This document shows positions 34,729-48,486 of a stretch of DNA of 64,000 nt, piece by piece. Each line of letters starts with the position of its first letter. Position 1 is the first letter of the stretch. The position numbers and the translations under genes were made by a program. Source of the stretch: Psychroflexus halocasei (lineage in GTDB: Bacteria; Bacteroidota; Bacteroidia; Flavobacteriales; Flavobacteriaceae); assembly GCF_900107595.1 (NCBI RefSeq), contig NZ_FNQF01000006.1, forward strand, positions 124,001-188,000, in the 5' to 3' direction. A model generated the notes under the pieces. It was given only the letters and a program-made list of their open reading frames with translations. It was not told the DNA's origin and did not search any database.

Positions 34729-35655
34729 ATGATAAAAAATTACGCATTAGGATTGATGATTTTGTTTTTTGGTTTTGTCTCTGCACAAGAAACGATTTCT
34801 TTTGAAGCCAGTGAAGGTTACCAATTAGCAACTTTAAACACCCAAAACGGATGGGAAGTAACAGTAGACAGCGATGGTAACTTTCTTCAAAACCAAGTTG
34901 TGACAGATGAAGAAGCTTCAGACGGCAGTTTTTCTTTTAAAAATGCTTTTGAGCCAAGTTATGATTGGCAATGGCTACCAATTTTTGGCGCTGCTAAAAC
35001 ATTTGACACACCAAAATCTTACGAAGATTTTGTATTTTCTTATGATGTTATGGTGACAGAAACACTGGGTGCCGACTTTGAGTTGACGCTTTATGGTATT
35101 GATGCTGATGAAGATTTTGTGCCAGTCGCAGGTTTTGCTATGGAAAATCAGGGGCAAGTATATGTTATTTCTGATATTACTTATGGCTCAGATTATATTG
35201 ATGGTGCATCATGGATTCCAAATACTTGGTACAGCATTAAAATAGAGGTTAGTGCAGCAGAGATTAAATATTATATGGATGATGTCTTGATTTATACGGG
35301 TGATAACTTTACTTCAGAAAATATTGAAGGTTTTAATATGTTACACAACAATTATGGTGGCGATGCTTATTATGATAATTTTGTTTATGCAAATGGCACT
35401 TTATCAAACAAGGATTTTTCTGAGTTAGCCGATTTAAGTATTTACCCAAATCCTGTCAAAAATGAATTAAACATTCAAGGTTTAGAATCTTTTGAATTAG
35501 AACGTTTATCGATTTACAACATGATGGGACAGCAATTGCTTGAGAGCACAACTGCTGAAACTTTAAATGTTGATCAACTTTCAGGAGGCGCATACATTCT
35601 TGAAATCACGACAAAAGAAAATAAATCATTCACAGAAAAATTTATTAAAAGATAA
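34729..35655 (+). CDS. T9SS type A sorting domain-containing protein
   Basis: A 308-residue exported protein, signal peptide ending VSAQ. Residues 20-215 form a beta-sandwich typical of LamG/laminin or concanavalin-like modules (SYDVMVTETLGADFELTLYGIDADEDF, WYSIKIEVSAAEIKYYMDDVLIY, AYYDNFVYANG), and the last 80 residues are a T9SS sorting domain (SIYPNPVKNELNIQGL). Its final 114 bases are almost identical to segments at 47240 and 50557. Function unknown; a binding or enzymatic role on surface glycans is possible but unproven. It is followed directly by a fragment of another sorting-domain gene. Confidence 0.8.
   Translation: MIKNYALGLMILFFGFVSAQETISFEASEGYQLATLNTQNGWEVTVDSDGNFLQNQVVTDEEASDGSFSFKNAFEPSYDWQWLPIFGAAKTFDTPKSYEDFVFSYDVMVTETLGADFELTLYGIDADEDFVPVAGFAMENQGQVYVISDITYGSDYIDGASWIPNTWYSIKIEVSAAEIKYYMDDVLIYTGDNFTSENIEGFNMLHNNYGGDAYYDNFVYANGTLSNKDFSELADLSIYPNPVKNELNIQGLESFELERLSIYNMMGQQLLESTTAETLNVDQLSGGAYILEITTKENKSFTEKFIKR
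35542..35655 (+). repeat. 114-bp T9SS sorting-domain repeat, copy 1
   Basis: The last 114 bases of the gene at 34729. It differs from copy 2 at three positions and from copy 3 at five, far closer than unrelated sorting domains would be. Confidence 0.85.
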
Positions 35656-35689
35656 AAATTATTTTTTAATAAATTTAAAGGCTATCAAT

Positions 35690-35946
35690 TATCAGATAAC
35701 AACATCATTAAACAAGGCAGTTTACCAATAGGGAACAACAATGTACTTATTAATGATTTAGAGTCTAGAAGATACGATTTTTACATCATCACTGATTGTA
35801 GTTCAGATATAAATGATTCAGTTATGCTAACTTTTGAAGTAGAAACATTATCAAATCATAATTTTGAACAAATTGAAGTATCTATGTATCCAAATCCAGT
35901 TCAAAGTGAACTTCATTTGAATAGTGATCAAAAAATTAATGAGTGA
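35690..35946 (+). pseudogene. Truncated FN3/T9SS gene fragment
   Basis: An open frame of about 85 codons with no start codon or signal peptide. It encodes SDNNIIKQGSLPIG, then RRYDFYIITDCSSDINDSVM and a sorting-domain start VSMYPNPVQSELHLN ending at SDQKINE and a stop. It aligns with residues about 590-665 of the protein at 48487-50670 and breaks off before the conserved second half of the sorting domain. It is therefore a decayed tail of a related gene, possibly cut by the copper island that begins just beyond. Confidence 0.75.
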
Positions 35947-35966
35947 ATGCCTGATTTTTTATGTTT

Positions 35967-36002
35967 GCCAGATTGCTTTATTAAAAAGTAATCTGGCTTT
36001 TT
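35967..36002 (+). terminator. Rho-independent terminator after the fragment
   Basis: GCCAGATT pairs with AATCTGGC, then a run of T; it may also lie at the end of the minus-strand copper island. Confidence 0.7.
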
Positions 36003-36313
36003 AAACTCGTTGAGCATTATGTTTTTTTAAAAAAAGTTATCCATTTTTCTGATAATCAAAAACTTGTTTTGGTTTTGAAACATCAATAACATAAAAATGA
36101 GCAATATTTAAAATGCACAACTGGTTAAATAGACTTTATTTAATATAGACCTTTTATAAACTGATAGTTTTTATCCAATTCGTTGGGTACTTCATTTACG
36201 GTTTTATTTTTTATTACAAATAATACTAGACTATTTATCTTAATTAAGACTTTAATGATATAGGTAGTCATTACAAGTATTGTGAAAATCAAGAAAGTTG
36301 TCATACAATTAAA
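36003..36313. other. AT-rich spacer at the left end of the copper island
   Basis: About 310 bases with no credible open frame, hairpin terminator or repeat that I can see. It separates the plus-strand fragment from the end of the minus-strand operon and may contain an island boundary. Confidence 0.4.
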
Positions 36314-37648
36314 TTATTTAAAGGTTAAAATATATTTTGCAAGCTCTTTTAATTCATCATCAGTTAATTGTGAAAATCCTGGCATTTGAGGGTAATCCGC
36401 TCGCTTTTTACCTGGTGTTTTTATCCAATTTTTTAAACCTGCTTCATCAGTAGCATAAATAGATGCCATTTCTGTGATTGGTGGACCTACTAATTTTTCG
36501 GTGGTTCTATGGCAAGCAGCACAATATTGATTAAAAACGGCCGATCCTTTGGCTATTTCTCCTAGCGATTCATCAATTTCTAAATCAGTGGTTTCTTCTA
36601 CAGGGTTTTCCCTTGCCTCTTTGCTTAATTTTTGAAATTCAGCGGTATGGGCAGTGACTAATTCTTGATGTTTTTCCAGTGCAGTATGTCTATACATTTG
36701 TCTACTACCTCCATAAAATACCATAAATATTAATATTGATACGGCTATCTTTTTAAAGTGTAAATCAATGTCTTCTTTAGGGCATATGATAGATTGATAG
36801 CAATACCACAAGGCATAAGCAAGGAACAGTCCCGCTATAGCCATTATACTGATAACACCATATCCTAAGCCTTTTGAAGGAAGGGTAAATAATACAATAA
36901 TACCAAAAAAGATTTGAAGCGCTAACCCTACGGTTGCTATAGAATAACCTATTTTTTTAATATGGTATCTTGTAAAGGAACTGTAAATTTTATCTATTGG
37001 ATAAGTTTTTCGGTTGTTGTACCACGTAATAAAAACTCCAGTAACAGCAATACAAGCTCCTAAAAATTCAAAATATCTAGGAAGTACATTGGGCAATACT
37101 AAAGCACTCACAAAACCTTTAACAGTCCCCCATTTTTCAGGAAACATCATCAAGTTTACATTGGTTAAAAAGATTAGGGGAATAAATAGAAAAATGGCAA
37201 CTGCCAAACCCATTATAGCAATGTGGATGTGTTTGTTCTTTTCTAAATTCTTCCAAGTGTATTTGTGTAAATAAGTAAGCAAAAATGCAATTGTAACCAA
37301 TGGTATAATCATAATCCATACAAAACCTGTTAAAGCATTTGCCGAATAAAAATAGATGGTATAAAGAGTGTTGATGCTTAAAAGAGGTGCTACCCCAAGT
37401 ACCACTGCAATACTTTTATTTACGGTGATAGTTTTGGCTATTTCGTGGGCAAAAATATCATATTCTTTATTTTTTAACCCTTTAATTTGAGCCCAAAGTG
37501 TTATTATACTTCCGCCAACCATTAAATTAATGAAAATAATATGTAGTAAAAATGATACTACCAATAAAATAACCAATAACCATTCTGGTAAGGGGAGATC
37601 AAGAGGAATATCTTTAGGAACAGGGGTATTTACTTGAAGTAATTTCAT
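36314..37648 (-). CDS. Multispanning membrane protein with C-terminal cytochrome c domain
   Basis: A 444-residue inner-membrane protein with about eight hydrophobic segments (roughly 22-45, 78-100, 108-126, 142-163, 192-210, 235-255, 262-284 and 302-314) and a C-terminal class I cytochrome c domain (about 355-444) with CAACH at 376-380 and a likely Met ligand in DYPQMPG (about 421). Several His residues in the membrane part (for example His36, HKY and HIH) could bind b heme. It follows the CydA-like/cytochrome c gene by 20 bases, so the two probably form an electron-transfer unit. I recognise no firm family name. It is the last gene of the island operon. Confidence 0.8.
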   Translation of the reverse strand: MKLLQVNTPVPKDIPLDLPLPEWLLVILLVVSFLLHIIFINLMVGGSIITLWAQIKGLKNKEYDIFAHEIAKTITVNKSIAVVLGVAPLLSINTLYTIYFYSANALTGFVWIMIIPLVTIAFLLTYLHKYTWKNLEKNKHIHIAIMGLAVAIFLFIPLIFLTNVNLMMFPEKWGTVKGFVSALVLPNVLPRYFEFLGACIAVTGVFITWYNNRKTYPIDKIYSSFTRYHIKKIGYSIATVGLALQIFFGIIVLFTLPSKGLGYGVISIMAIAGLFLAYALWYCYQSIICPKEDIDLHFKKIAVSILIFMVFYGGSRQMYRHTALEKHQELVTAHTAEFQKLSKEARENPVEETTDLEIDESLGEIAKGSAVFNQYCAACHRTTEKLVGPPITEMASIYATDEAGLKNWIKTPGKKRADYPQMPGFSQLTDDELKELAKYILTFK

Positions 37649-37668
37649 TTATTTTAATATTATGTTGA

Positions 37669-39141
37669 TTAATCTTCAGAATAATCTTTATTCTCTTCGA
37701 GTTTTTCAGTAACCGATTTTACACTGTTTAAAGGGTTTATTTTTACTCCAGAAGTTTGTACGCCTTCTAGACTTTCTCCCGTTTGTTGGACTTGTTTGAT
37801 GTAAGCAACCAGAGCATCCAACTCTTTTTTATTTCCAGCAAAGGGTGGCATGTAAGTTCTTCCATTATGCATATTCGGAATGTACGCAGCCATTGAATTT
37901 TTATCTAAAGGTTTACCAAAACCATACATACGCTCAAAAACATAAGTAATTGAATTGACACCTTGCGGGTTAACGGTATGACAACGACTACATAAGTTCA
38001 TAAAAACATCTCTACCGGCTTCAATTTTATTTTCTTCCGTAATTTCTGTTATGGCGGTATATGTGGCATGTTTTAAGATGCCATCTCTTTTATACAATGG
38101 GTAATCTTCTTCTCTTAAAAGGTTAGAATACATATAATTTCCAATCACATAGGGTTTACGGACAAATTCACGTACTCTTTCAAAAATCCCCAAAAAACCA
38201 AAGGCTAAAACGCAAGGAACAATAACAAAAGCAAAATTTATTTTTTTAGGTTTCATTAAAGCAAACAGAGCAAGAAGTACAGATAATGAAGCTGTTCCAA
38301 TAATAAAGTATTTTAATAGATCATAATATTGGGCAAATTCCATACTACCTACGGCCGTACTCATATTATCTTTCATGGCACTTGGCATCACACTCCAATA
38401 AAAAACAGCGCCAATAATAACTAGCGGTGTCCAAACCAAAATCCATTTACTTGCATATTTAACGGCTTTTGCTCTTATGTCACATCCTTTCTTTGTGAAA
38501 ATGGTAGTGAGTAACATCCCAAATACACCTCCAATTAACATCGCTGTCGGTGTTCTAAATAGTAATTGCGGGAAATAGATAGGATTCGTAAAACCATTTA
38601 ATAAAGTCTGTTCATTGTTCCAGTTTCCTGGATCCATCATAAAACCAAGAATGGCCACGATTATAGCCATCGTAATCCACGAAAAAATGGATAGAAACCA
38701 TCCGAATTTTATATGACGGACTTTAGCTTTGAGTGACGTATTTGAGTTTTTCCAAGTGAGGAAATAAATCAAAATAAGAATAACTTCTGTAACAAAAACC
38801 AACCACTCTGTAAACCAAGCCCAATAAAATACTCTAATTAAGCTCCCTATAGAAGAAGGGCTTACCAAAGCAACCGAAAACCAAATTCCAACGCCCGTCA
38901 TAGCACCAATGGTGGTTGTGATGATAAAGGCAACCTTCATTTTTTTATAGATAAGGTTATCCCAGTTTAGATCGGTTATTTGATCTTTGCTTGCATTTGT
39001 AACACCTTTTTGTTCTAGCCAAGTGATGTATGGGATAAAGCCTACTGCCAAACCATGGTTAATAAACACGTGCAGTATGGCAATAACCGCTATTAAAAAG
39101 CGGTCGTTAAGCCAATCGAGATGAAACATTGGAAAATCCAT
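37669..39141 (-). CDS. Cytochrome bd subunit I-like protein with C-terminal cytochrome c domain
   Basis: A 490-residue membrane protein. I use the ATG at 39141 (MDFPMFHLDWLNDRFLIAV); upstream in-frame starts at 39171 (ATG) and 39180 (TTG) exist. Residues 10-330 resemble a short CydA-type quinol oxidase subunit: His24 and His29 in HVFINHG, GVGIWFS, FTEWLVFVTE and the MMDPGNWNN segment. The Q-loop of true CydA is missing. A cytochrome c domain (about 372-455) with CSRCH (384-388) and a Met in MPPFAG follows. It may move electrons from quinol or to a periplasmic acceptor. Related bd-family proteins with fused heme c have been described in Bacteroidetes; the catalytic role here is not known. Confidence 0.78.
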   Translation of the reverse strand: MDFPMFHLDWLNDRFLIAVIAILHVFINHGLAVGFIPYITWLEQKGVTNASKDQITDLNWDNLIYKKMKVAFIITTTIGAMTGVGIWFSVALVSPSSIGSLIRVFYWAWFTEWLVFVTEVILILIYFLTWKNSNTSLKAKVRHIKFGWFLSIFSWITMAIIVAILGFMMDPGNWNNEQTLLNGFTNPIYFPQLLFRTPTAMLIGGVFGMLLTTIFTKKGCDIRAKAVKYASKWILVWTPLVIIGAVFYWSVMPSAMKDNMSTAVGSMEFAQYYDLLKYFIIGTASLSVLLALFALMKPKKINFAFVIVPCVLAFGFLGIFERVREFVRKPYVIGNYMYSNLLREEDYPLYKRDGILKHATYTAITEITEENKIEAGRDVFMNLCSRCHTVNPQGVNSITYVFERMYGFGKPLDKNSMAAYIPNMHNGRTYMPPFAGNKKELDALVAYIKQVQQTGESLEGVQTSGVKINPLNSVKSVTEKLEENKDYSED

Positions 39142-39199
39142 AGTCTTTAGAATTTTTATGCAAAGTTTCATTAAGATCAATGATATTTCTAAAAATAAT

Positions 39200-39232
39200 A
39201 AAGCAGGAAGTTTAGATTATAGTTCCTGCTTT
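39200..39232 (-). terminator. Hairpin between the AraC/YHS and cytochrome genes
   Basis: AAAGCAGGAA and TTCCTGCTTT pair perfectly over 10 bp, followed on the minus strand by TATTATTTTT. It could reduce expression of the two cytochrome genes. Confidence 0.6.
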
Positions 39233-39298
39233 GTTAGGGAAAACGGTTATTGATTTCAATATTTATGACTCTTAATTTTAGTTTTTAGTATTAAAATT

Positions 39299-39542
39299 TT
39301 AATTTTTAATAGTGTGCTCAATTTTTGGCAAAAAATATTCAGGGTCTTTCTTGAATTGTTCCTTGCATATTGTTGAGCAAAAACTATATAGTTTTCCCTT
39401 GTATTTAAATTATGGTGCTTATTAAATGTAGACCCTAAGGTCCAAGAGCATCTCAAGCATAGGTTAAGGGTTCCTGTAAGAGTTATGCAAAACCGTAGGT
39501 ACAGCTCATCATAACCAAAAGTAAAATAGTGTTTGCTTTCAT
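39299..39542 (-). pseudogene. Frameshifted small YHS-domain protein
   Basis: Read on the minus strand from the ATG at 39542 the gene starts MKANTILLLVMMSCTYGFA and hits a stop; a second frame carries TLTGTLNLCLRCSW and FNKHHNL, and a third carries YKGKLYSFCSTICKE followed by DPEYFLPKIEHTI. The last part is a clear YHS/TRASH-like metal-binding motif (Phe-Cys-x3-Cys), preceded by the Cys-x2-Cys and His-His pair of the other frame. Two indels thus break one export-signal-plus-YHS gene of about 80 codons. It lies 13 bases after the AraC gene, inside the copper operon. Real sequencing error cannot be excluded. Confidence 0.7.
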
Positions 39543-39555
39543 GATTTTTAATTTA

Positions 39556-40419
39556 TTATTTTTCAAGTTTTCTAAATTGTTCTGGACTATTACCAGTTTG
39601 TTTTTTAAAAAAAGTTATAAAATAGGATGTGTTTTCAAACCCAAGTTTATCAGCTATCTCATTAATAGAATTATGAGTATATAGAATAAGCCTTTGAGCT
39701 TCTATGGTTATACGTTTTCTAATTAAATCTCCAGCCGTCATGCCTGTTGTCTCTTTGCATAGTTTATTGAGGTAATTAGGACTTATATTAAGTAATTCGG
39801 CATAATCTGAAGGTAATTTTTTAGAAATAAAATGTAGCCCTATCAATTTTTCAAAACTTTGTACTTTATGTTGTCTTGGCGTTTTGTAATTAATAGTTCC
39901 GACAGGCTTGTAGATGCGTTCCAATTCAAATAATAAGATATTTAAATAGGATCTTATTACTTTTTTTGCTTCTGTTTTTTGGAGTATATATTCTTCTTTT
40001 AGAAGATTCAAGAAAATCTTTAGTCTGTTCAATTGGTTTTCTGAAATGCGAATAAAAGGTTTAGATTCCAGGTTTAAAAAAGTAAATAGATTTAAAATAT
40101 TGTTATTGAATCTTAATGAAAAAAAAGCTTCATGGAAGCATATTATCATTCCATTTGCTTTATTGTTTATGTTAATCGTATTTATGCAATGTGGTTTAAT
40201 TATGATAACTTTAGCCTCATTAACCAGAATTCTTTTGTTGTCTATATTTATTTCTCCTTGAGCTTGTTCAATAAATAATATGGTATAAAAATTATGAGTA
40301 TGAGGATATTCTAAAAAAGGAAATTTAGGCAACAATCCATTTAAGTCGCTTATCCAAAAATGCTTTAAGTTTTCATCAAATAAATCCATGTTGCATACAG
40401 GAATATGTTCTGTTTGCAT
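39556..40419 (-). CDS. AraC-family transcriptional regulator
   Basis: A 287-residue regulator. The N-terminal cupin-like effector domain (about 35-110) contains HTHNFYTILFIEQAQGEI and the IIKPHCIN segment, whose His and Cys could bind a metal. Two helix-turn-helix motifs lie in the C-terminal 100 residues (LPSDYAELLNISPNYLNKLCKE and SINEIADKLGFENTSYFITFFKKQTG). Being encoded in the copper operon it is the best local candidate for its control. Its operator is not recognisable. It follows a small Cys protein by 28 bases. Confidence 0.9.
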   Translation of the reverse strand: MQTEHIPVCNMDLFDENLKHFWISDLNGLLPKFPFLEYPHTHNFYTILFIEQAQGEINIDNKRILVNEAKVIIIKPHCINTININNKANGMIICFHEAFFSLRFNNNILNLFTFLNLESKPFIRISENQLNRLKIFLNLLKEEYILQKTEAKKVIRSYLNILLFELERIYKPVGTINYKTPRQHKVQSFEKLIGLHFISKKLPSDYAELLNISPNYLNKLCKETTGMTAGDLIRKRITIEAQRLILYTHNSINEIADKLGFENTSYFITFFKKQTGNSPEQFRKLEK

Positions 40420-40447
40420 GATTATGATTAATTAAAAATTAGAAAAA

Positions 40448-40834
40448 CTAAATTAAATTAACCAGCTTTTTTGGGGGATGGAAAATGGATTGTACAAATG
40501 TGAAGATTATGAGGTCATTTCTTGAGAAAATAACCGCTTTATGATGACCAGTAGAAAGCTTAATTCTAAAATCTATGTCGTTATTTACCTGTGTATAGAG
40601 TTGAACCTCTTTGTTCTTAGTACTGGTATTTTTTTGTTCTTTTTTTTCGTTTTCGGACAATTTTTCACTTAAATAACAAGAACCTTTACAAACAGGGATT
40701 TTATCAAATCTATTAATACATAGCTCTTGTGCGATGTAATCCCTGTTTAAATAAAATGAAAACATAATATAAAAGTTGCTTGTACTTTGAAATACAAACA
40801 AAATGATGAGGAAATATGTTATTATTTTATTCAT
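40448..40834 (-). CDS. Small Cys-motif protein with FHPP tail
   Basis: A 128-residue protein with a hydrophobic N-terminus (1-28, probably a membrane anchor) then the motif ELCINRFDKIPVCKGSCYL (Cys39, Cys49, Cys53), a Lys/Glu linker and a C-terminal IFHPPKK (His119-Pro-Pro). The Cys pattern and PP tail match those of the protein at 46617-46988 in the same island. It starts 8 bases after the SCO1 gene ends. Similar small proteins sit beside TonB receptors in Bacteroidetes, but their role is not established. Copper binding by the three Cys and the His is an inference. Confidence 0.7.
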   Translation of the reverse strand: MNKIITYFLIILFVFQSTSNFYIMFSFYLNRDYIAQELCINRFDKIPVCKGSCYLSEKLSENEKKEQKNTSTKNKEVQLYTQVNNDIDFRIKLSTGHHKAVIFSRNDLIIFTFVQSIFHPPKKLVNLI

Positions 40835-40842
40835 TAATGGAT

Positions 40843-41442
40843 TTATTCTTTCAGTAATATTTTAATATCATCAATTAATCTTGCGATATCTATGGGATCT
40901 GTCCCATCATAGACACCTCGAATATGTCTGTTTTTGTCAATTAATAAAAATCCACCTCCGTGTACAAAACCGTCAGGTTCATTTGAATCTGGATATGCGG
41001 TTGTGAAATAGCTTTCAATAGCAATGTTCATTATACTGTCTCTATTCCCAGTTACAAAATGCCAATTGCCATCAATTTCTTGCCGCTCGCTAAAGTTTTT
41101 TAAACGCTTTACGGTATCTCTATCAGGGTCTATTGTGTGCGATAAAAATGAGATATCGGGATTGTCTTTATAATGTTGATAAACCGATTTCATGTGTGTG
41201 TGCATAATAGGACAAATAGTAGGGCAGGACAGAAAAATAAAATCGGCTACATAAGCTTTACCTTCAAAGGTACTGTTTGTTATTATTAAGCTGTCTTGAT
41301 TTGTAAATGAAAAATCTTTTATTTTAGGATATACGGTTTCACCGTCTTTAATTTCAGGATTGCCTAAAACGGGTAATTTCTCTTGTTTTTCTTTACAAGA
41401 AAGAGCTATGATTAGGAGTAAAATCCAAGCATACTTTTTCAT
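40843..41442 (-). CDS. SCO1/SenC-family copper chaperone lipoprotein
   Basis: A 199-residue thioredoxin-fold lipoprotein: the lipobox is ALSC (Cys16). The copper-binding pair is Cys73 and Cys77 in FLSCPTICPIM, with His161 in GFVHGGGFLLID as third ligand, the full SCO1 set. SCO proteins deliver copper to cytochrome oxidase CuA or act as thiol reductases. Here the partner may be the CydA-like cytochrome or the imported copper pool, because no CuA oxidase is encoded nearby. It lies 71 bases after the peroxidase gene and 8 before the small Cys gene. Confidence 0.92.
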   Translation of the reverse strand: MKKYAWILLLIIALSCKEKQEKLPVLGNPEIKDGETVYPKIKDFSFTNQDSLIITNSTFEGKAYVADFIFLSCPTICPIMHTHMKSVYQHYKDNPDISFLSHTIDPDRDTVKRLKNFSERQEIDGNWHFVTGNRDSIMNIAIESYFTTAYPDSNEPDGFVHGGGFLLIDKNRHIRGVYDGTDPIDIARLIDDIKILLKE

Positions 41443-41513
41443 GCTGCAATATAGTTATTTTAACGTTTAACTTAAAGTGTGATTTCTAAGTCACTCGTTT
41501 GTTTGCACTTGTA

Positions 41514-42542
41514 TTATTGATCAATAAAATCTGTATCACTCAACGTTTTCATAAACGAAATTAGAAATGCTTTTTCCTGTTCGGTGAGTGGTATTCTATT
41601 GCCATTATTTTTGAAAATAGGATCCAGATTGTTTGCATCTAAAACACCTTCGTCAAAATAGTCTAGGATATCAATAAGTGTTTCAAATTGGCCAAAACTG
41701 CCATAGGGTGCTGTGTATTCTACATTTCTTAATGAAGGCACTCGAAAGCTCATATAGTCGGCATCAATTCCAGTAATTCGAGCTCTTCCGGCTTCATTAC
41801 TGTCAGGATTTATTGGAAAACCGATGTTTCTAAAACTCTGATCGGTAAATAGTTCTGTGCTGTGGCAACTGGAACACTTTTCTTGAAAAAGTTGATATCC
41901 TTGAGCTTCGTTTTCTGTAAAACTTTCTCCTTCATTTCGCATAACTTTATCATATTTACTATTGGCAGAAATGAGGGTGTATTCATATTGAGCAATGCTG
42001 TTATAAATTCTCTCAGGGGTGATTTCTTCATCCCCAAATGTTTTTTGAAAAAGCTCTAGGTAGGACACATCATTTTGAATTTTTCCGATGCTTTCTATGA
42101 TTGAAGAGTCCATTTCCTCGTGAGTAATGATAGGTACTATTGGCTGACTCTCTAATTGAAGTTTGCTTCCATCCCAATTATAAAACCTCATAAAAGCAAG
42201 ATTTTGAATAGGTGGTGTATTGCGAAGCCCAATTCTACCTTCAATTCCGATTGCCTGTGCATTATTATCTGCAAAGGCATTTGACTGAATATGGCAGCTG
42301 GCACACGAAATAGTATTGTCTGCACTGAGACGTTTTTCGTGAAATAGTTTTTTTCCTAATTCTACTCCATATTTTGTTGGTATGTTCGTATAATACGAGT
42401 TGTTCACTTCCGGAAACCCAATAGGTATATTTATTGAAGCCTCAGGGTTGTTATAAAAAACAGGTTCGTAGTCTTCTTTGCTACAAGATGTTGCGAGACA
42501 CATTATGCTTATTAAAAGAAAGACTGTTTTTTTCATTTTCAA
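41514..42542 (-). CDS. Diheme cytochrome c peroxidase, MbnH/MauG-like lipoprotein
   Basis: A 342-residue periplasmic lipoprotein (lipobox ATSC, Cys20) with two heme c sites, CASCH at 80-84 and CSSCH at 223-227, in the spacing of the bacterial cytochrome c peroxidase/MauG family. LGKKLFHEKRLSADNTISCASCH and FRVPSLRNVEYTAPYGSFG are typical. The neighbour is an MbnP gene; in methanotrophs MbnH, a diheme enzyme of this family, oxidises a Trp of MbnP to kynurenine to build its copper site. That pairing suggests the same job here. A simple peroxidase is the alternative. Confidence 0.88.
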   Translation of the reverse strand: MKMKKTVFLLISIMCLATSCSKEDYEPVFYNNPEASINIPIGFPEVNNSYYTNIPTKYGVELGKKLFHEKRLSADNTISCASCHIQSNAFADNNAQAIGIEGRIGLRNTPPIQNLAFMRFYNWDGSKLQLESQPIVPIITHEEMDSSIIESIGKIQNDVSYLELFQKTFGDEEITPERIYNSIAQYEYTLISANSKYDKVMRNEGESFTENEAQGYQLFQEKCSSCHSTELFTDQSFRNIGFPINPDSNEAGRARITGIDADYMSFRVPSLRNVEYTAPYGSFGQFETLIDILDYFDEGVLDANNLDPIFKNNGNRIPLTEQEKAFLISFMKTLSDTDFIDQ

Positions 42543-42565
42543 TAAAAAAGTTAAAAGAAATAAAA

Positions 42566-42589
42566 AGAGCCGCCTGTTAAAACGGCTCT
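42566..42589 (-). terminator. Intra-operon terminator after mbnP
   Basis: AGAGCCG pairs with CGGCTCT and is followed on the minus strand by TTTTT. It separates the MbnP gene from the peroxidase gene and should lower downstream expression. Confidence 0.75.
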
Positions 42590-42600
42590 GAAAAATAAAT

Positions 42601-43467
42601 TTAGTTTTCTACATTGATAACAGAAAACATTCCAACAAAGTCATTTGAGCTATTTCCACCCAAATTATCTACAAATTTCTCCATTTCCACAGCAGTGTGG
42701 ATATTTGGAGTGGCATTGTCATTCATGCCAGATCCTGACGATAATGTAATTGTGTAAGAGTTTCCACTTAGCAGTTTATCAAAATCTGCTTTAATCGTAA
42801 TTTTGGGTGCTGAGTTTCCTACTATAGCATTTGTAGAAAGGTCGAGAGTGATATCTCTGTAAGCATCAACTCCTTGCACATGACCTCCTTCACCATCTTC
42901 AATTGTACTTCCTGTATGTATAGACATTTCTTTATTGTCAGTATCATAAAATCCTTCGATTTTTGTAAAACGATAACCAGTTCCCCATTCCCACATCATT
43001 TCGGTATCGTTTGCTCCAGCATTATTATAGAATTCTGGAAAACTTACTTCATCCAAAGTATTTAAGTCACTTCTAATTCCCAATCCGAATTTGATTTGCT
43101 TGTATTCATCTGATGGGATGTTGCTCAAAACATAATTCAATGTTTCTGGTTTTGAATGGTCTATAACGGTTGCTCCATTATCAAGATCGTTTATATTGTA
43201 AGGAATTTCAGAACCGTCTTTTTTAATTAGGCGGATATTGCTAATTACATATTTTAATTCTGCAAAACGGTGTGCTTGACCAGCTTCTGAAGTGTTTACT
43301 GAAGCTAAAGAAGAAGATTCTCCTCCTAATACGATAGTATTCTCTCCAAAGGTGTTTTGGAACTCTAGTGTTACGTTGTTTGCAACAGGAAAACTGTCGT
43401 CATTGCTACATGAAATAAAAGCTATTGAAATAGCAGCTAGTAAAAGGTAATTTTTCATTTTTTTCAT
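42601..43467 (-). CDS. mbnP: MbnP-family copper-binding lipoprotein
   Basis: A 288-residue periplasmic or surface lipoprotein (lipobox ISC, Cys20). The family core is seen in HRFAELKYVISNIRLIKKDG (about 66-85), then MMWEWGTGYRFTKIEGFY (157-174) and the late IHTAVEM. In methanotroph MbnP a Trp of this region is converted to kynurenine and binds copper with a His; here Trp159 and Trp161 are the candidates. It lies 36 bases after the OprC-like receptor gene, with the diheme enzyme immediately downstream, so the order receptor-MbnP-MbnH is preserved. No methanobactin synthesis genes are present. Confidence 0.9.
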   Translation of the reverse strand: MKKMKNYLLLAAISIAFISCSNDDSFPVANNVTLEFQNTFGENTIVLGGESSSLASVNTSEAGQAHRFAELKYVISNIRLIKKDGSEIPYNINDLDNGATVIDHSKPETLNYVLSNIPSDEYKQIKFGLGIRSDLNTLDEVSFPEFYNNAGANDTEMMWEWGTGYRFTKIEGFYDTDNKEMSIHTGSTIEDGEGGHVQGVDAYRDITLDLSTNAIVGNSAPKITIKADFDKLLSGNSYTITLSSGSGMNDNATPNIHTAVEMEKFVDNLGGNSSNDFVGMFSVINVEN

Positions 43468-43503
43468 TTTTTATTAAATTAATAGATATTATTATTTTTA
43501 TAG

Positions 43504-45492
43504 TTAAAGATTAAATTTTAATGAAGTGAAAATATTGCGTCCCATTCTTGGGATGTTTCCCCAATCGGCATAAGTGCTATAATATTCGTTTAACACATTT
43601 TCAGCCCCTAGTTGAAGAACTGTTTTTTTATTTTTTATATAAAAGGTATAATCTACAGAGAGGTTCCAAATGGTATAAGAGGGGGTTTGATCTTCTCCGT
43701 ACTCTGGACTGTAGTTAATTTGTTCTATATCGCCATTTACTGAAGTCTGGAATCCAAATCTTTCGTAGTTATAATTTAACGATGTTTGGTAACTTAATGG
43801 ACGAATAAACGGTAAATTTTTCTCGTTTTCATCTTTTCCTCGTGCATAAGTTAACGATCCTTTCCAGTGTAAATCATCAAAAAGCGTGTAACTTGTATTG
43901 AGTGAAAAGTTAAACAGGGTTGAGTGATCTAGAGAGGTGTAGCCCTTAACACCAACCGATTGGTAGTTCATTGGGCTTCCCATACTTAAAACCCTACCAA
44001 TGATGTAGTTTTTAATATAGAAGTAATTCACTTTGGCTTGAACACTAGCTTTTTCATTTTTAAAACCTGCGCTTGCATGGCCTTCATAGGAGATTTCGTT
44101 TTTTAGATTTGGATTTCCTATATAATCATAACGGTCAAAACTGTTGTAAATATAGTAGCCGTAACCTTCAGAAACCGAAGGAGCTCTGTGGCCGTAGCCT
44201 GTACCGATTGAGAAGTTAAAATTGTTTATATCAAGCTGGTAACTCGTGTTTAAACTTGGTAGAATTCGTGTTTTTTCTTGAGGAGTTCCCGGATGAAAAA
44301 TCCAATTGAACTCCACATATTTTGAATGGTTATAGTTTATTGTCAAAGAACCACCAAAGTTTAACTGGCTTCTTTCTGAAAGCTCCCAAGTGTTATTCAT
44401 CGATATTCCAGCAACAGTGGTTGTTACTGATGGCCAGCTGTAAGCAAACATAGTTCTTTCGCTTCTATCTTGTGGGTACATACGCATTTCTGCAATGGAT
44501 AGATTGTTATAGGCATTCAACTGTATTTCTGAAAAAAACCGCTCGTTTTTTAAAGTAGCTTTAGACACCAAACCGTAGGTTGTACTCCAACCTGGCATAT
44601 CCATATGAACCAGGTTTTCAGGACGGGTGGTGTCGTCCATATAGTGCTCAATAGCATTGAAATAGACTTTTGTATCCCAAACTTTGAAGAGACCTTCTTC
44701 AAATAATTGTTTGTAGGAAGCCGAGGTAATTAGAGCTCTTGATAGCCATAAATCCATTGGGAGAGCAGGAAAACCAACATCATTTGCTTGATCAAAAATG
44801 GCTTCTACTCTAACTGATGATAGCGTGCTTGTTTTGTAAGCCAATCCTATCGAAGTGTTGAATTTATTATATTGTGAGTGGTTTACTTCCTTGTTATTCC
44901 CATCAGAATAATTACCCGCTTCTCGAAATGAAATACTAGCGTCTGCTACAAATTTATCACTTGAGTAGGAAACATTTCCTAGATTGAAAAATTGTTTGTT
45001 ATTTAATTCAAACCCTGTTTGATAAGATCCACTCCATTTTTTATAAAGATTAAACGGAGTACTTTTTCTTTTTAAATCAATGCTTCCAGCAACTGTAGCC
45101 CCATGCAAACTACCCTCTTGTCCAGATTTTATATCAATTTCGGAAATATTATTGGTCTCTATGTATGAAGTAACTGGATCCATTTTGTCAGTACAAGCTC
45201 CAAAAATATGCATCCCATCAATGGTAATTGTTGAGCGTTCGGTGCTCATATTGTTGAGTAGTGGTTCCCAAGCGTAGGCTCCACGTTTAATAAAGCTAAT
45301 GTCTTCAGAAGATGCTAGAAACTCATCAACTGAAACTGCCATCTTCATTTCGGTTTCAATCTTTTTCTTGATAGCAGCAGTTATTACTACTTCCTCTAAT
45401 TCTACTGATTTTGTACTGTCCTTTTCTGCCTTTGTGTTTTGTCCATTTGCACATATTCCCCAAAAAAGCAATAGTGTTATAATATATTTCAT
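43504..45492 (-). CDS. TonB-dependent copper receptor, OprC/NosA-like
   Basis: A 662-residue outer-membrane transporter. I use the ATG at 45492 (MKYIITLLLFWGICANGQ), giving a good signal peptide; the frame opens 21 bases earlier. The plug domain carries GACTDKMDPVTSYIE, where Cys100 and Met104 form the CxxxM half of the OprC copper site. The barrel carries IEHYMDDT with His283-x-Met285, the HxM half; the spacing (183 residues) is close to that in Pseudomonas OprC (about 180). Both parts being present makes copper the likely cargo. The C-terminus is ...FTSLKFNL, a TonB-receptor end. Four bases separate it from the upstream lipoprotein. Confidence 0.9.
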   Translation of the reverse strand: MKYIITLLLFWGICANGQNTKAEKDSTKSVELEEVVITAAIKKKIETEMKMAVSVDEFLASSEDISFIKRGAYAWEPLLNNMSTERSTITIDGMHIFGACTDKMDPVTSYIETNNISEIDIKSGQEGSLHGATVAGSIDLKRKSTPFNLYKKWSGSYQTGFELNNKQFFNLGNVSYSSDKFVADASISFREAGNYSDGNNKEVNHSQYNKFNTSIGLAYKTSTLSSVRVEAIFDQANDVGFPALPMDLWLSRALITSASYKQLFEEGLFKVWDTKVYFNAIEHYMDDTTRPENLVHMDMPGWSTTYGLVSKATLKNERFFSEIQLNAYNNLSIAEMRMYPQDRSERTMFAYSWPSVTTTVAGISMNNTWELSERSQLNFGGSLTINYNHSKYVEFNWIFHPGTPQEKTRILPSLNTSYQLDINNFNFSIGTGYGHRAPSVSEGYGYYIYNSFDRYDYIGNPNLKNEISYEGHASAGFKNEKASVQAKVNYFYIKNYIIGRVLSMGSPMNYQSVGVKGYTSLDHSTLFNFSLNTSYTLFDDLHWKGSLTYARGKDENEKNLPFIRPLSYQTSLNYNYERFGFQTSVNGDIEQINYSPEYGEDQTPSYTIWNLSVDYTFYIKNKKTVLQLGAENVLNEYYSTYADWGNIPRMGRNIFTSLKFNL

Positions 45493-45496
45493 AGCA

Positions 45497-46423
45497 TCAG
45501 AATAAAGTATCAATATAAAGTTCGCTTTTTACTCCTTCTATTCCTGGTGTAAAATCTGTTGGAACCTCAGTTCCTTTAATGACTTGATCATTCTCATTCA
45601 GAAAAATGAAATTCAAGGTCCAATTTCCAGTCATGGTATAGTTTACTACCCCGTGATACAGACCGTCGTTTAGTTGTATTAAATCCTGATTGTTTGGAGA
45701 AGAATGATTTCCCATAGAAGGCTCAGGCATTCTTGGATCCAACAACAGTTTGTGATTCTTCACTTTAGAAAATAAAAACTGAGAAGGATCAGGGAAGTCT
45801 CCTGCAGGATTGGTGGGCTGAATGTATTTATAAACTCCTGCCACTAAATTATTTTCTGAAACATTTGGTTTTTGAGGAGCTATTAATGCGATAAAGTACA
45901 TTTCATCATCATTTCCAATAAATGATGCCATATTTAAGTTTTTATTTGTTTGTTCTAGAACTGAAATATTTTGATTAACCGTATAGGTTTGGTCATTGTC
46001 TGTAAAACTAATGTACAGCTCCCAGCTTCCTATATCCCCACTCTTATTAGTAAAAACAGCATAACCTGAATAATAGTTCTCGTCTGTATTGTAAACCAAT
46101 TCATAGCTGTGCGGACAGGATGAATTGTTGCCTGAAGCATCGGTTAATATGGGTAAAAAGGTGACTTCTGAGTTATTTATATGCTCATTGGTTTGTGTAT
46201 TGGTAATCTCCAATCTAATTTCGTTGTACCCTTTATGTAAAGATCCATTTAAAGCCTCAATTGTAATTATATATTGATTACTAGTAAATGAAGTTGCCTC
46301 TTCAAAATCGTAGTAATCAGTGACTTCAGTAGCTATCTCAGCTTCGTAATCTGTTTCTTCAAGTGTACAGGATACTGTAATCACAAATAAGATTGTAATT
46401 GCAAAAAGAATATGAAATTTCAT
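45497..46423 (-). CDS. Lipoprotein with YtkA/FixH-like beta domains
   Basis: A 308-residue lipoprotein (lipobox TVSC, Cys19). Two similar beta-sandwich units can be seen: about 45-150 (YNEIRLEITNTQTNEHI to GSWELYISFTD) and about 170-290, with DPRMPEPSMGNHSSPNN followed by DGLYHGVVNYTMTGNWTLNF. The Met/His-rich MPxPxMGNHSSP plus GxYxGxVxxxMxGxWxL pattern is that of YtkA/FixH-like domains, which often occur near copper proteins. It is cotranscribed immediately upstream of the OprC-like receptor, so it probably presents or stores copper at the surface. Family assignment is by pattern only. Confidence 0.75.
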   Translation of the reverse strand: MKFHILFAITILFVITVSCTLEETDYEAEIATEVTDYYDFEEATSFTSNQYIITIEALNGSLHKGYNEIRLEITNTQTNEHINNSEVTFLPILTDASGNNSSCPHSYELVYNTDENYYSGYAVFTNKSGDIGSWELYISFTDNDQTYTVNQNISVLEQTNKNLNMASFIGNDDEMYFIALIAPQKPNVSENNLVAGVYKYIQPTNPAGDFPDPSQFLFSKVKNHKLLLDPRMPEPSMGNHSSPNNQDLIQLNDGLYHGVVNYTMTGNWTLNFIFLNENDQVIKGTEVPTDFTPGIEGVKSELYIDTLF

Positions 46424-46474
46424 TTAAAATGAATTTTAATATTGAATTAAAACATGTAAAAGATCAACAGATAA

Positions 46475-46512
46475 ACTACACACTGTTTTTGAGTCATTAA
46501 AAACCGTGTAGT
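46475..46512 (-). other. Hairpin in the leader between the small Cys gene and the lipoprotein
   Basis: ACTACACACTGTTTTT and AAAAACCGTGTAGT pair with a small bulge around a short loop. There is no T-run, so it is a structured RNA segment or attenuator rather than a clear terminator. Confidence 0.4.
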
Positions 46513-46616
46513 TGTATGTTATTGTTCCTGGTGATGAAGTGCAGTATTGGTTTTAGTCTTTGAAACAAATTAGCGAGCATTAGGGTAGCTGTCAGACTAA
46601 AAAACACCTTTAGATA

Positions 46617-46988
46617 CTATTTTATTGGAGGGCGAAATATAGAATCTGTATTCAGATAGGAATAGGATAAATTGCCGTTGCTAGTAAGTGTTTTTAATTT
46701 AGCGGTATATAATAAAGGAGGCTGAAAGTAAAAATTCTTTTCTATTTCTTCATAGAATACAAGATTAGACTCTGCTGAAATGTGTTTCTTTTCTTTATCA
46801 CTTTCAGACTCCGAAGCTTTGGCTAACTCTTTTTTTAAATAACACTTTCCATTACATTCTAGTTTTGGCTCATCCTTATTTTCACACAGCTCATTTTTTA
46901 TATAATCATAGAAAGCCGCATATTCCATAAGTGGTACTATAGGCTTAAAAAGTATGACCAAAGATAATATGAGTGTTGTTGTTTTCAC
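46617..46988 (-). CDS. Small Cys-motif protein with FRPP tail
   Basis: A 123-residue protein and the first gene of the copper operon. It opens with GTG (46988) and a hydrophobic segment (1-26), followed by ELCENKDEPKLECNGKCYL (Cys35, Cys45, Cys49), a Lys/Glu linker and the end IFRPPIK. The paralogue at 40448-40834 shares the Cys spacing, the GxCYL core and the PP tail. A plausible job is metal binding or sensing at the membrane, but nothing is established. The upstream sequence has a GACCTTTG near-match to the -7 box, giving an almost leaderless transcript. Confidence 0.68.
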   Translation of the reverse strand: MKTTTLILSLVILFKPIVPLMEYAAFYDYIKNELCENKDEPKLECNGKCYLKKELAKASESESDKEKKHISAESNLVFYEEIEKNFYFQPPLLYTAKLKTLTSNGNLSYSYLNTDSIFRPPIK

Positions 46989-47239
46989 GATGCAAAGGTC
47001 GTGTTTTTTTTATAGTAACCATATTCATGATTGTTTGTTTAAATTATTGGATTGAATATTTAAATAGAGGAGTTTGCAAATAGCAAAGAACCATTATCCG
47101 TAATTATAGAATACCTCTGATTGAAATTGATTTTTCAATTATGGATAAGTATTTAGTAGAAAAAGTTAATTGAGTTTTACTGGAACTTTTAAAGAAAAAC
47201 AACATCACTATCAGTATGACTGAAGAAAATCATTGTTAT
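46989..47239. other. Spacer at the right end of the copper island
   Basis: About 250 bases holding the minus-strand promoter of the island operon and unrecognised AT-rich sequence. Homology to sorting-domain genes begins at about 47231. No credible gene is seen. Confidence 0.45.
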
Positions 47240-47353
47240 GAAAGCACAACTGCTGAAACTTTAAATGTTGATCAACTTTCAGGAGGCGCATACATTCTTG
47301 AAATCACGACAAATGAAAATAAATCATTCACAGAAAAATTTATTAAAAAATAA
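47240..47353 (+). pseudogene. T9SS sorting-domain fragment, repeat copy 2
   Basis: A 38-codon frame (ESTTAETLNVDQLSGGAYI to KFIKK and stop) without start or upstream gene. It matches the last 114 bases of 34729-35655 with three differences, and the same segment ending the gene at 48487. It supplies the half of the sorting domain missing from the fragment at 35690-35946. Confidence 0.8.
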
Positions 47354-47373
47354 TTTTTCTTTAGAAACTAATG

Positions 47374-47406
47374 AATGCCTTGAGAAGAAATTGTCAAGGC
47401 ATTTTT
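47374..47406 (+). terminator. Terminator after the sorting-domain fragment
   Basis: AATGCCTTGA pairs with TCAAGGCATT and is followed by TTTT. The same hairpin recurs after the intact gene at 50695-50728, so the duplication extends past the stop codon. Confidence 0.8.
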
Positions 47407-47423
47407 AATTCAAAAATTAAACT

Positions 47424-47431
47424 TATATTTG
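47424..47431 (+). promoter_or_regulatory. -7 box of the LysR gene
   Basis: TATATTTG, 32 bases before the LysR start, directly followed by the perfect dyad at 47435. Confidence 0.6.
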
Positions 47432-47434
47432 TGA

Positions 47435-47457
47435 TTATTTAGATTAACTCTAAATAA
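47435..47457. promoter_or_regulatory. Perfect dyad operator upstream of the LysR gene
   Basis: TTATTTAGA, TTAAC, TCTAAATAA: both 9-base arms are exact. It lies just after the -7 box, where a bound protein would block transcription initiation. Best copy of the motif in the window. Confidence 0.75.
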
Positions 47458-47463
47458 GTAACA

Positions 47464-48366
47464 TTGAATATCAATCAATTAAAATATATTTTAGCGATAA
47501 AAGATCAACAGCATATTACTCGTGCTGCTGATAAATGCTGTGTTGCACAACCTACATTAAGTCGTGAGTTACAAAAACTTGAAAAAGAGTTAGATATCAT
47601 GATCTTTGATAGATCTAGATCTCCAATAGTTCCTACTGCAAAAGGGGAAAAGGTCTTAATAATAGCAAAAGAAATTTTACACAAAATAAAGGAATTGGAA
47701 AATTGTGCTAAAGATGAAAATGACATATACCATCATACTTTTAATTTAGGTGTTTGGACGTGTTTAGCTCCTTATTTTTTGCCGTTTTTTCTTAAATTAT
47801 TTGCTGATAAATACCCAAATATTAGGTTCAATATTTTTGAGCTTAATTTAATTCAACTTCAAAAAAAATTACATAACAATAGTTTAGATGCCTGTATAAC
47901 GTATAGTTTTAAAGATCAATCAGGTTATTATGAATCAAAATTATATGACGAAACTTTTTTTGCTTACACGAGTTTAAAAGGAAATACTTGCCAACTGGAA
48001 AGAAAAGATGTAAATTTTTTTCACTTTCATAAACTTATTTTACAATATGATTTTGAATCAATTTTAAAAGAGATTAATTACAATGGTTTTGAAACTCACA
48101 AAGACTTCAGCATTGATTTGTCATACCAAAATGGATCTATAGAAACCATACGTAAAATTATTCAAATTAATGGAGGCACGACTATTTTACCTTCAGTAAT
48201 TATAAATAAACATGATAAAAACTACATTAATCACTTAATGATTAATCAGCAACTCAAAGTCACTCTTCCAATAAAACTTGTTAGTCCACGTTTTTTTGAA
48301 AAAAAAGAACTTTTACTTTTAATTAAAAAGGAACTTAAAAACTCGTTCAGATTTTCTGTAAACTAA
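47464..48366 (+). CDS. LysR-family transcriptional regulator
   Basis: A 300-residue regulator with the usual layout: N-terminal winged helix-turn-helix (about 1-60, MNINQLKYILAIKDQQHITRAADKCCVAQPTLSRELQKLEKEL) and a two-lobed effector domain (about 90-295). It starts with TTG at 47464; no ATG with a better fit is seen. Cys22, Cys23 and Cys182 are the visible thiols, but the OxyR Cys pair is not evident, so an OxyR role is not supported. A perfect dyad lies 7 bases before its start, compatible with autoregulation or with control by a metal regulator. It is downstream of the copper island and upstream of a T9SS gene. Confidence 0.88.
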   Translation: MNINQLKYILAIKDQQHITRAADKCCVAQPTLSRELQKLEKELDIMIFDRSRSPIVPTAKGEKVLIIAKEILHKIKELENCAKDENDIYHHTFNLGVWTCLAPYFLPFFLKLFADKYPNIRFNIFELNLIQLQKKLHNNSLDACITYSFKDQSGYYESKLYDETFFAYTSLKGNTCQLERKDVNFFHFHKLILQYDFESILKEINYNGFETHKDFSIDLSYQNGSIETIRKIIQINGGTTILPSVIINKHDKNYINHLMINQQLKVTLPIKLVSPRFFEKKELLLLIKKELKNSFRFSVN

Positions 48367-48450
48367 GTTTGCCAATATCCAATATTTATTCATTGTTTTT
48401 GGCTATGTAAACCATGTTATATGGCTATAAATTAATTTAAAATTAATCCG

Positions 48451-48473
48451 TAGTTTTGAGTAAGTCTAAATAA
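48451..48473. promoter_or_regulatory. -7 box and half-dyad before the VCBS/T9SS gene
   Basis: TAGTTTTG (48451-48458) fits TAnnTTTG; with the spacer GTAAG it is followed by an exact TCTAAATAA arm. The left arm (TAGTTTTGA) matches 6/9, so this is a weak site of the operator seen elsewhere. Confidence 0.45.
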
Positions 48474-48486
48474 AAATAATATTATA

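Follow-up and report, generated by a model that had tools for sequence, protein, structure and literature searches.

How Gram-negative bacteria take up copper without methanobactin is largely an open matter, and the copper-binding protein MbnP and its di-heme partner MbnH occur far outside the methanotrophs without an assigned role (PMC3621798, PMC8610252). In methanotrophs, isolated MbnP/MbnH pairs are found near TonB-dependent receptors (PMC3621798), and the copper-binding proteins MopE and CorA, associated with the cell surface, are accompanied by a di-heme cytochrome (PMC3912023). The receptor OprC binds copper through C143, M147, H323 and M325 (PMC8610252), and an OprC-like receptor with these CxxxM-HxM ligands has already been published from Bizionia argentinensis, a member of the Flavobacteriaceae (PMC11213822). 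Here we analyzed a window of 64,000 nucleotides from Psychroflexus halocasei (contig NZ_FNQF01000006.1, positions 124,001 to 188,000), in which genes for an OprC-like receptor, MbnP and MbnH lie together with genes for a YtkA-like lipoprotein and a small Cys protein (cysX). Judged from sequence comparison, these five core genes are likely to form a methanobactin-independent copper-uptake cassette of Bacteroidota, a proposal that includes an uptake path and a role for a hairpin located after mbnP.

The cassette resembles the methanobactin-operon and isolated MbnP/MbnH systems (PMC3621798) in the fold of MbnP (7l6g), in its WxW motif and in the adjacent gene for a di-heme partner. It differs from them in having no methanobactin genes, in its OprC-type receptor and in the extra lipoprotein and Cys protein; moreover the window MbnP has one Cys, against the four-Cys motif after which the reference protein is named, and in the cassette MbnH H[D/N]G is missing and the Tyr is shifted. 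A copper protein with a di-heme partner is also found in MopE/SACCP and CorA/CorB, whose surface location we propose for the cassette too, but these proteins use Kyn-x-His and a second His (Kyn62, H64 and H114 in CorA) where the cassette MbnP has W-x-W and H184 (PMC3912023). OprC and NosA (PMC8610252) share the ligands at aligned positions; in contrast to them, the cassette receptor is only weakly similar overall, falls under the TIGR01778 cut-off and sits with MbnP and MbnH. The Bizionia receptor gene lies between those of CcoG and NosL in a paper with 0 occurrences of MbnP (PMC11213822), and it may belong with the cassette or with a second clade described below (L035). The CrtA-PepSY operons of Bordetella and Pseudomonas likewise centre copper import on a receptor and tie it to respiration, sometimes with SCO, but they belong to another receptor cluster, carry a PepSY reductase and import chelated Cu(II) (PMC12914433). 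Finally, MauG has the same di-heme fold, two CxxCH motifs and Gln-Pro-Glu residues, and differs in its axial Tyr294.

Conservation and distribution of the core cassette

To follow the cassette in other genomes we used two sets of loci. Out of 40 loci examined, 15 orthologous ones (L052-L066) carry the cassette, 11 of them picked for an MbnP identity of at least 58% and four taken from the PF20243 list, and 25 do not. The second set came from a scan of named genomes with a receptor alignment and holds the best 80 of 549 confirmed stretches, ranked by receptor similarity and thus near relatives. The genes for the YtkA-like lipoprotein, the receptor, MbnP and MbnH have the same order in 15/15 cassette loci, with a small Cys protein nearby, and these four genes are together in 79 of the 80 scanned loci, the exception being a 3.9-kb Dyadobacter contig without MbnH. 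Counted one by one, the neighbours of the receptor gene are MbnP (80/80), MbnH (79/80), the YtkA-like lipoprotein (79/80, the 80th being a contig-end fragment) and a clustered Cys protein (77/80). Because this order recurs in both sets, it is not due to chance. The 80 loci belong to 18 named genera and are distributed over Flavobacteriia (55), Sphingobacteriia (23), Chitinophagia (1) and Cytophagia (1). Outside the core the flanks are variable and no gene cluster is common to more than 14 loci. The nearest named locus seen, that of Confluentibacter sediminis (L100), is colinear with the window and shows 76% nucleotide identity across 7.7 kb. Flavobacterium anhuiense (L086) is another carrier of the cassette.

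In a family sample of 299 genomes, 12 (including this one) encode an MbnP that is 58-100% identical to the window MbnP, and the next best is 35% identical. The cassette receptor is not in the 25 other fetched loci, one of which, L035, has a 24%-identical relative. This second OprC-like receptor (L035:5357-7351) contains CPSRM and HSM and lies about 1 kb from an MbnH-MbnP pair of the other type. Within the genus, any MbnP was found in 10 out of 21 genomes; eight of the nine other MbnP-bearing genomes were fetched and all eight have the other type (MbnP 27-30% and MbnH 39-45% identical). As all these loci are of the other type, the cassette looks to have been gained in this genome or lost elsewhere in the genus. 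In 7 of the 8 loci (L181-L188) the other-type pair comes after one or two genes whose products have about 455-480 amino acids (aa); those of L181 encode a protein with LVIVD repeats and a secretion tail, and a lipoprotein of 462 aa. A plasmid-borne cassette was rejected, given that a tblastn search of the plasmid collection at 1e-20 gave no match to the receptor.

Predicted copper-site residues and the heme pocket of MbnH

Overall the receptor matches OprC weakly (phmmer against 6fok, 1.5e-07), and its NCBIfam scores are below the cut-offs for both TIGR01786 (97.3, cut-off 323.75) and the TonB-copper model TIGR01778 (86.1, cut-off 472.45). Its CTDKM motif aligns with OprC C143-M147 and its HYM motif with H323-M325, and C100, M104, H283 and M285 correspond to the four copper ligands of OprC, of which M325 is marked by a mutant row of the PDB (u117293, M to H at the aligned place). 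All four residues are invariant in 96/96 receptors, as are many further Met residues. By these ligands the receptor appears to be of the OprC copper type, and copper import is predicted.

MbnP scores 124.8 bits with PF20243, above the gathering score of 27, and 64 with TIGR04052, below the cut-off of 140. W159 and W161 of the WxW motif are present in 96/96 rows and, together with H184, are invariant in 29/29 diverse sequences; conservation also points to H66 (0.99) and H257 (0.97) as candidate ligands. Beyond the lipobox there is no Cys in 94 of the 96 rows and one Cys in the other two. The fold of MbnP was predicted with a pLDDT (predicted local distance difference test) of 74.9, residues 154-164, which hold the WxW motif, being under 50. 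A Foldseek search with this model placed six chains of 7l6g, the MbnP of M. trichosporium, first (E 3.7e-09 to 1.6e-08, template modelling (TM) score 0.52), after which nothing was better than E 0.095. Acidic residues following the lipobox Cys are a signal for surface export in Bacteroidota; they occur in 90/96 MbnP and 69/95 MbnH sequences.

The lipoprotein scores 21.2 with the YtkA model (cut-off 25.9) and AlphaFold predicts beta-sandwich domains (pLDDT 78.9). Its residues M232, M237, H240 and M264 are invariant in 96/96 rows and lie within LDPRMPEPSMGNHSSPNN and VNYTMTGNWTLN; the protein also has the sequence LDPRMPEPSMGNH. For the small Cys proteins no Pfam or NCBIfam family was found. The pattern C..C.G.C is present in 101 of the 149 rows collected. 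Outside the cassette, too, such proteins are encoded close to MbnP, at a distance of up to 1.5 kb in 13 of 28 loci.

The best NCBIfam model for MbnH is TIGR04039 (194.5, cut-off 362.85), the MauG model giving 170.2 (cut-off 443.85), and both scores are below the cut-offs. Both CxxCH motifs (C80/C83/H84 and C223/C226/H227) are invariant in the cassette proteins. The window MbnH, however, reads PYGSFGQF where PYMHDGRF is expected, and Tyr295-Phe296 instead of x-Tyr. We counted these motifs in 93 of 94 cassette proteins (the L150 frame is truncated) and in 33 of 35 other Bacteroidota MbnH (two L044 frames were unread). The H[D/N]G motif is absent from 93/93 collected cassette proteins, or 94/94 counting the window, which have GSFG, GSYG, GNFG or GSLG at this position. 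Counted from the place of the His of H[D/N]G, position +13 is Tyr in 93/93 and position +14 is Phe (69) or Leu (24). In contrast, the other Bacteroidota proteins have MHDG, MHNG or THDG and a Tyr at +14 in 33/33 cases. A tree was built with 42 MbnH of the cassette and 35 others, using a third of the scanned loci and including the columns of the trait itself; in it the cassette rows fall on one side of a branch with a Shimodaira-Hasegawa-like approximate likelihood ratio test (SH-aLRT) support of 100. Position +14 corresponds to MauG Tyr294 and is Phe296 in the window, in an alignment that ends at query residue 293 (chain residue 291) and was extended by three residues.

The Gln-Pro-Glu residues of MbnH have roles in peroxide chemistry. 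Because Gln133, Pro137 and Glu143 are kept in 95/95 cassette proteins, the other heme could plausibly carry out such chemistry. The initial annotation supposed, by analogy with methanotrophs, that MbnH oxidises MbnP. The CxxCH pair and these residues are retained; nevertheless two features of 33/33 other MbnH have been lost, and kynurenine formation by the cassette MbnH is less sure than was assumed there. It is quite possible, if short of probable, that the cassette MbnH no longer makes kynurenine and is instead peroxidase-like or purely electron-transferring, MbnP binding copper unmodified. The missing H[D/N]G and the Phe or Leu at the place of the axial-type Tyr are in line with this, since this Tyr ligand is conserved in MauGs whereas cytochrome c peroxidases (CcPs) have Met or His there (PMC7567364), and the best PDB matches of the window MbnH are classical di-heme peroxidases (1iqc, 6.4e-39, ahead of the MbnH 6e1c, 9.2e-31). 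Against it, a Tyr is kept one residue earlier in all cassette proteins, the Gln-Pro-Glu residues are retained, MbnP keeps both Trp of WxW, and the MbnP-MbnH pairing is unbroken in complete loci. A further idea, possible but rather doubtful, is that the low-spin heme has been rewired, with its Tyr shifted by one residue and H[D/N]G lost, and that MbnP would be oxidised by another route or oxidant than that of methanotroph MbnH or MauG, in a methanobactin-free machine where copper passes from surface MbnP and MbnH to an OprC-type receptor and the hairpin sets a high MbnP:MbnH ratio.

Hairpin, upstream motif and accessory genes

The gap between mbnP and mbnH is the top terminator-like site in positions 36000-47500, where 12 such sites were found in total against 5.0 in shuffles. 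The 60 bases after mbnP fold with z < -2 in 54 out of 79 loci, compared with 1/80 after the receptor gene and 11/79 after mbnH. With a strict test for a perfect stem, the numbers are 11/78 for the mbnP-mbnH gap, 0/79 and 0/71 for the two upstream gaps and 11/79 after mbnH. In an alignment of 28 loci, nine of the ten pairs of the hairpin have changes on both sides in some row, and the covariation score is 0.301, compared with 0.163 in shuffles (0/500 as high) and 0.049-0.136 when the structure is slid along the alignment. The hairpin may therefore act in partial termination or in 3'-end protection, either of which would raise MbnP over MbnH. A search for known RNA families in positions 35600-48500 found none.

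Upstream of the cassette the sequence TCAATCC was seen on the forward strand in 5/5 loci with a close AraC gene and in 0/62 without, and the AraC regulator (HTH_18 match, 77.9) probably controls the cassette promoter.

Open reading frame checks and Pfam/NCBIfam scans confirmed the eleven minus-strand genes or remnants of the initial annotation, with families mostly as first named (Table 1). The single broken gene that it reported as a YHS remnant is actually two remnants: the YHS tail is real, and the start of a superoxide dismutase (SOD) gene lies before it. The SOD remnant is 63% identical to the SOD of Confluentibacter sediminis and the YHS remnant shares 60% identity with the YHS lipoprotein of Flavobacterium supellecticarium (L087), both of which are intact at the same place. 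The SCO1 match (PF02630) scores 82.7 bits, above the gathering score of 22.8. The G+C content of the region (0.30-0.36) is similar to that of the remainder of the window.

Table 1. Features of the cassette region in the window, by position.
Feature	Position	Strand	Remarks
Core cassette	41514-46988	-	cysX / YtkA-like lipoprotein / OprC-like receptor / MbnP / MbnH
TCAATCC	47049..47055	-	candidate AraC operator (post hoc); upstream of cysX
cysX	46617..46988	-	123 aa; N-terminal hydrophobic stretch, C..C.GKCYL motif; first gene of core cassette
YtkA/FixH-like lipoprotein	45497..46423	-	308 aa; near-invariant LDPRMPEPSMGNHSSPNN; two beta-sandwich domains predicted
OprC-like TonB-dependent receptor	43504..45492	-	662 aa counted from ATG
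MbnP homologue	42601..43467	-	288 aa lipoprotein
Terminator-like hairpin, mbnP-mbnH gap	42566..42589	-	compensatory changes in relatives
MbnH homologue	41514..42536	-	di-heme lipoprotein; residue numbers from TTG-start frame 41514-42542
Accessory module		-	SCO / cys / AraC / (SOD) / YHS / cytB / cytA
SCO1/SenC-like lipoprotein	40843..41442	-	accessory module
Second small Cys protein	40448..40834	-	accessory module
AraC-family regulator	39556..40419	-	accessory module
SOD remnant	39438..39542	-	codons 1-35 of a gene for a secreted Fe/Mn SOD, in-frame stops
YHS remnant	39329..39403	-	3' end of YHS-domain lipoprotein gene
cytB	37669..39141	-	bd-subunit-I-like membrane part + C-terminal cytochrome c
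cytA	36314..37648	-	membrane part + C-terminal cytochrome c; cytB partner

The region is made of two modules and is not the single eleven-gene island first described, and the accessory module is separable from the core cassette. Among the 80 scanned cassettes, SCO is near 9, an AraC gene of at least 45% identity near 4, the YHS lipoprotein cluster near 8 and cytB/cytA near 1; the module stands beside the cassette, without SOD, in 1/80 loci and is partial in 8 more. The initial annotation was to be refuted if its genes often occurred separately; judged in this way, the core genes hold up and the accessory genes do not. Flavobacterium supellecticarium has the order of the window minus SOD (cysX-YtkA-receptor-MbnP-MbnH-SCO-cys-AraC-YHS-cytB-cytA), and Confluentibacter sediminis has SCO-cys-AraC-SOD. 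Upstream positions are occupied by cys-YHS-SCO-SOD in five Chryseobacterium loci (L113 was read fully and the other four were assigned by cluster) and by SCO-cys-AraC in L130 and L133. Conversely, genome G048 (L167) carries SCO-cys-AraC-SOD-YHS-NHL-cytB-cytA with zero cassette genes within 19.9 kb, and its sole MbnP locus is of the other type. The secreted Fe/Mn SOD recurs beside SCO (L100:15935-16609, L113:7778-8452 and L167:13209-14276), and that it might be a source of hydrogen peroxide (H2O2) for MbnH is an idea.

Both membrane cytochromes have a cytochrome c domain at the C-terminus in the family scan. A search with the profile of the cytB family hits 5doq, a cytochrome bd subunit I, at 2.7e-10, and PF01654, the model for this subunit, matches 4 out of 10 cytB relatives but not the window cytB; the membrane part of the cytB/cytA family thus seems to resemble cytochrome bd subunit I. 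The neighbours of cytB relatives include Rieske and cytochrome b genes (L172) and a COX1 gene (L175), and cytB/cytA is most likely an electron-transfer membrane complex. In L169 and L171, next to a cytA relative, frames of 892-896 aa combine a cytB relative with multiheme cytochrome regions in one fusion. That cytB is a gene of the whole Flavobacteriaceae was rejected, with matches in 3/199 genomes, its own genome alone over the full length; in the phylum it is matched over most of its length in 21 out of 395 genomes.

Beside the cassette, a divergent LysR-family regulator (window 47464-48366) has a best match of only 29-33% identity in ten other genomes of the genus. The C-termini of two flanking proteins (window 34729-35655 and 48487-50670) end in almost the same sequence, NMMGQQLLES...DQLSGGAYILEITTKENKS, and resemble a type IX secretion sorting tail.

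Proposed copper uptake and the alternatives

In the uptake path that we propose, the lipoproteins MbnP and MbnH would be placed at or near the outer surface, where MbnP would hold copper and then hand it to the receptor through its CxxxM-HxM site. TonB would drive the copper inward, and on the periplasmic side the lipoprotein with its Met/His motifs and the small Cys protein may accept it. The hairpin would lead to more MbnP than MbnH, in keeping with the former as substrate and the latter as its enzyme. Behind the cassette of this genome SCO, a copper chaperone, the second Cys protein, AraC and cytB/cytA are joined to it. Of all this, the gene order and its conservation, the invariant residues, the fold match of MbnP, the change in MbnH and the covariation of the hairpin are observations, and the copper cargo, the place in the cell, the sequence of transfers, the regulation and the stoichiometry are inferred. 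Copper import was already suggested by the initial annotation, and for the core it finds support in the OprC-type ligands, the MbnP fold and the pairing of MbnP with MbnH. Its statement that a methanobactin maturase is missing holds for the whole genome, which has no match to the MbnB-family model PF05114, found in 2 of 14 control genomes.

Several results weigh against copper uptake by the cassette or against its proposed control. The scores of the receptor, MbnH, the YtkA-like lipoprotein and MbnP with TIGR04052 are all under curated cut-offs. Several cassette proteins score well above general models and miss strict equivalog cut-offs; they are relatives and not standard members. A fold search with the lipoprotein gave unspecific immunoglobulin-like matches alone, with TM-scores near 0.2, and the acidic surface signal is present in 1/94 of its rows. 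RNAalifold predicted no pair on the 28-row alignment, because in 10 of the 28 rows the hairpin is missing on visual inspection or the alignment is poor, and the structure used for the covariation count was chosen after viewing the same alignment. TCAATCC was picked post hoc, its five loci represent about three independent lineages, and on either strand it is found in 2/62 loci without AraC. A k-mer scan of 20 upstream regions gave no 7- or 8-mer that beats shuffles (one was at shuffle level), the 10-mers that exceeded them being A/T runs. Lastly, searches of the open-access literature found no paper on copper control of these genes, nor any on the cassette itself.

If copper is the cargo, it could enter as a foreign complex, such as a chalkophore or a small chelate, which MbnP and the lipoprotein would strip or whose copper they would hold. 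MbnT imports Cu-methanobactin, Bordetella CrtA takes up chelated Cu(II) although it has no cognate metallophore (PMC12914433), and isolated MbnP/MbnH pairs of methanotrophs lie near MbnT-like receptors (PMC3621798). We nevertheless hold this to be unlikely, as all four ligands for ionic copper are invariant and the best NCBIfam matches of the receptor are heme and copper receptor models, with no MbnT model among them.

It is less likely still that the eleven genes are one machine supplying copper to a respiratory complex with cytB/cytA. The identical order in Flavobacterium supellecticarium, the role of SCO as a CuA chaperone and the TCAATCC motif upstream of the cassette in AraC-bearing loci would fit such a machine. 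However, cytB/cytA and SCO accompany few of the scanned cassettes, the module stands alone in G048, bd-type oxidases use no copper, and the genome has no COX2 match (9/14 controls do). The latter result also speaks against a CuA oxidase as the client of SCO here and leaves the CuA site of NosZ or another role.

A function in copper defence or sequestration is improbable: MbnP-type proteins do bind copper at the surface and YtkA-like domains occur in resistance loci too, but TonB-dependent receptors that bear a site for ionic copper are importers (OprC, PMC8610252), and no efflux pump, copper oxidase or CusR-type regulator was seen in the clusters common to at least 8 of the 80 loci. Dedicated supply of nitrous oxide reductase, the role originally put forward for NosA/OprC of Pseudomonas stutzeri, was rejected as highly improbable despite a NosZ at 931 bits in this genome and the OprC/NosA ligands of the receptor, since NosZ is above cut-off in 5/12 cassette genomes and 134/287 others of the family sample and is not associated with the cassette.

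Read as a copper-uptake cassette, the five genes, found in at least 18 named genera of Bacteroidota, link MbnP and MbnH to a receptor whose type of copper site is known, and the lipoprotein and the small Cys protein are additions not described in the open-access literature searched. The cassette MbnH offers a naturally altered di-heme site for testing what residues MbnH needs to oxidise tryptophan, and it raises a sharp question, namely what role an MbnH with this type of heme pocket has.

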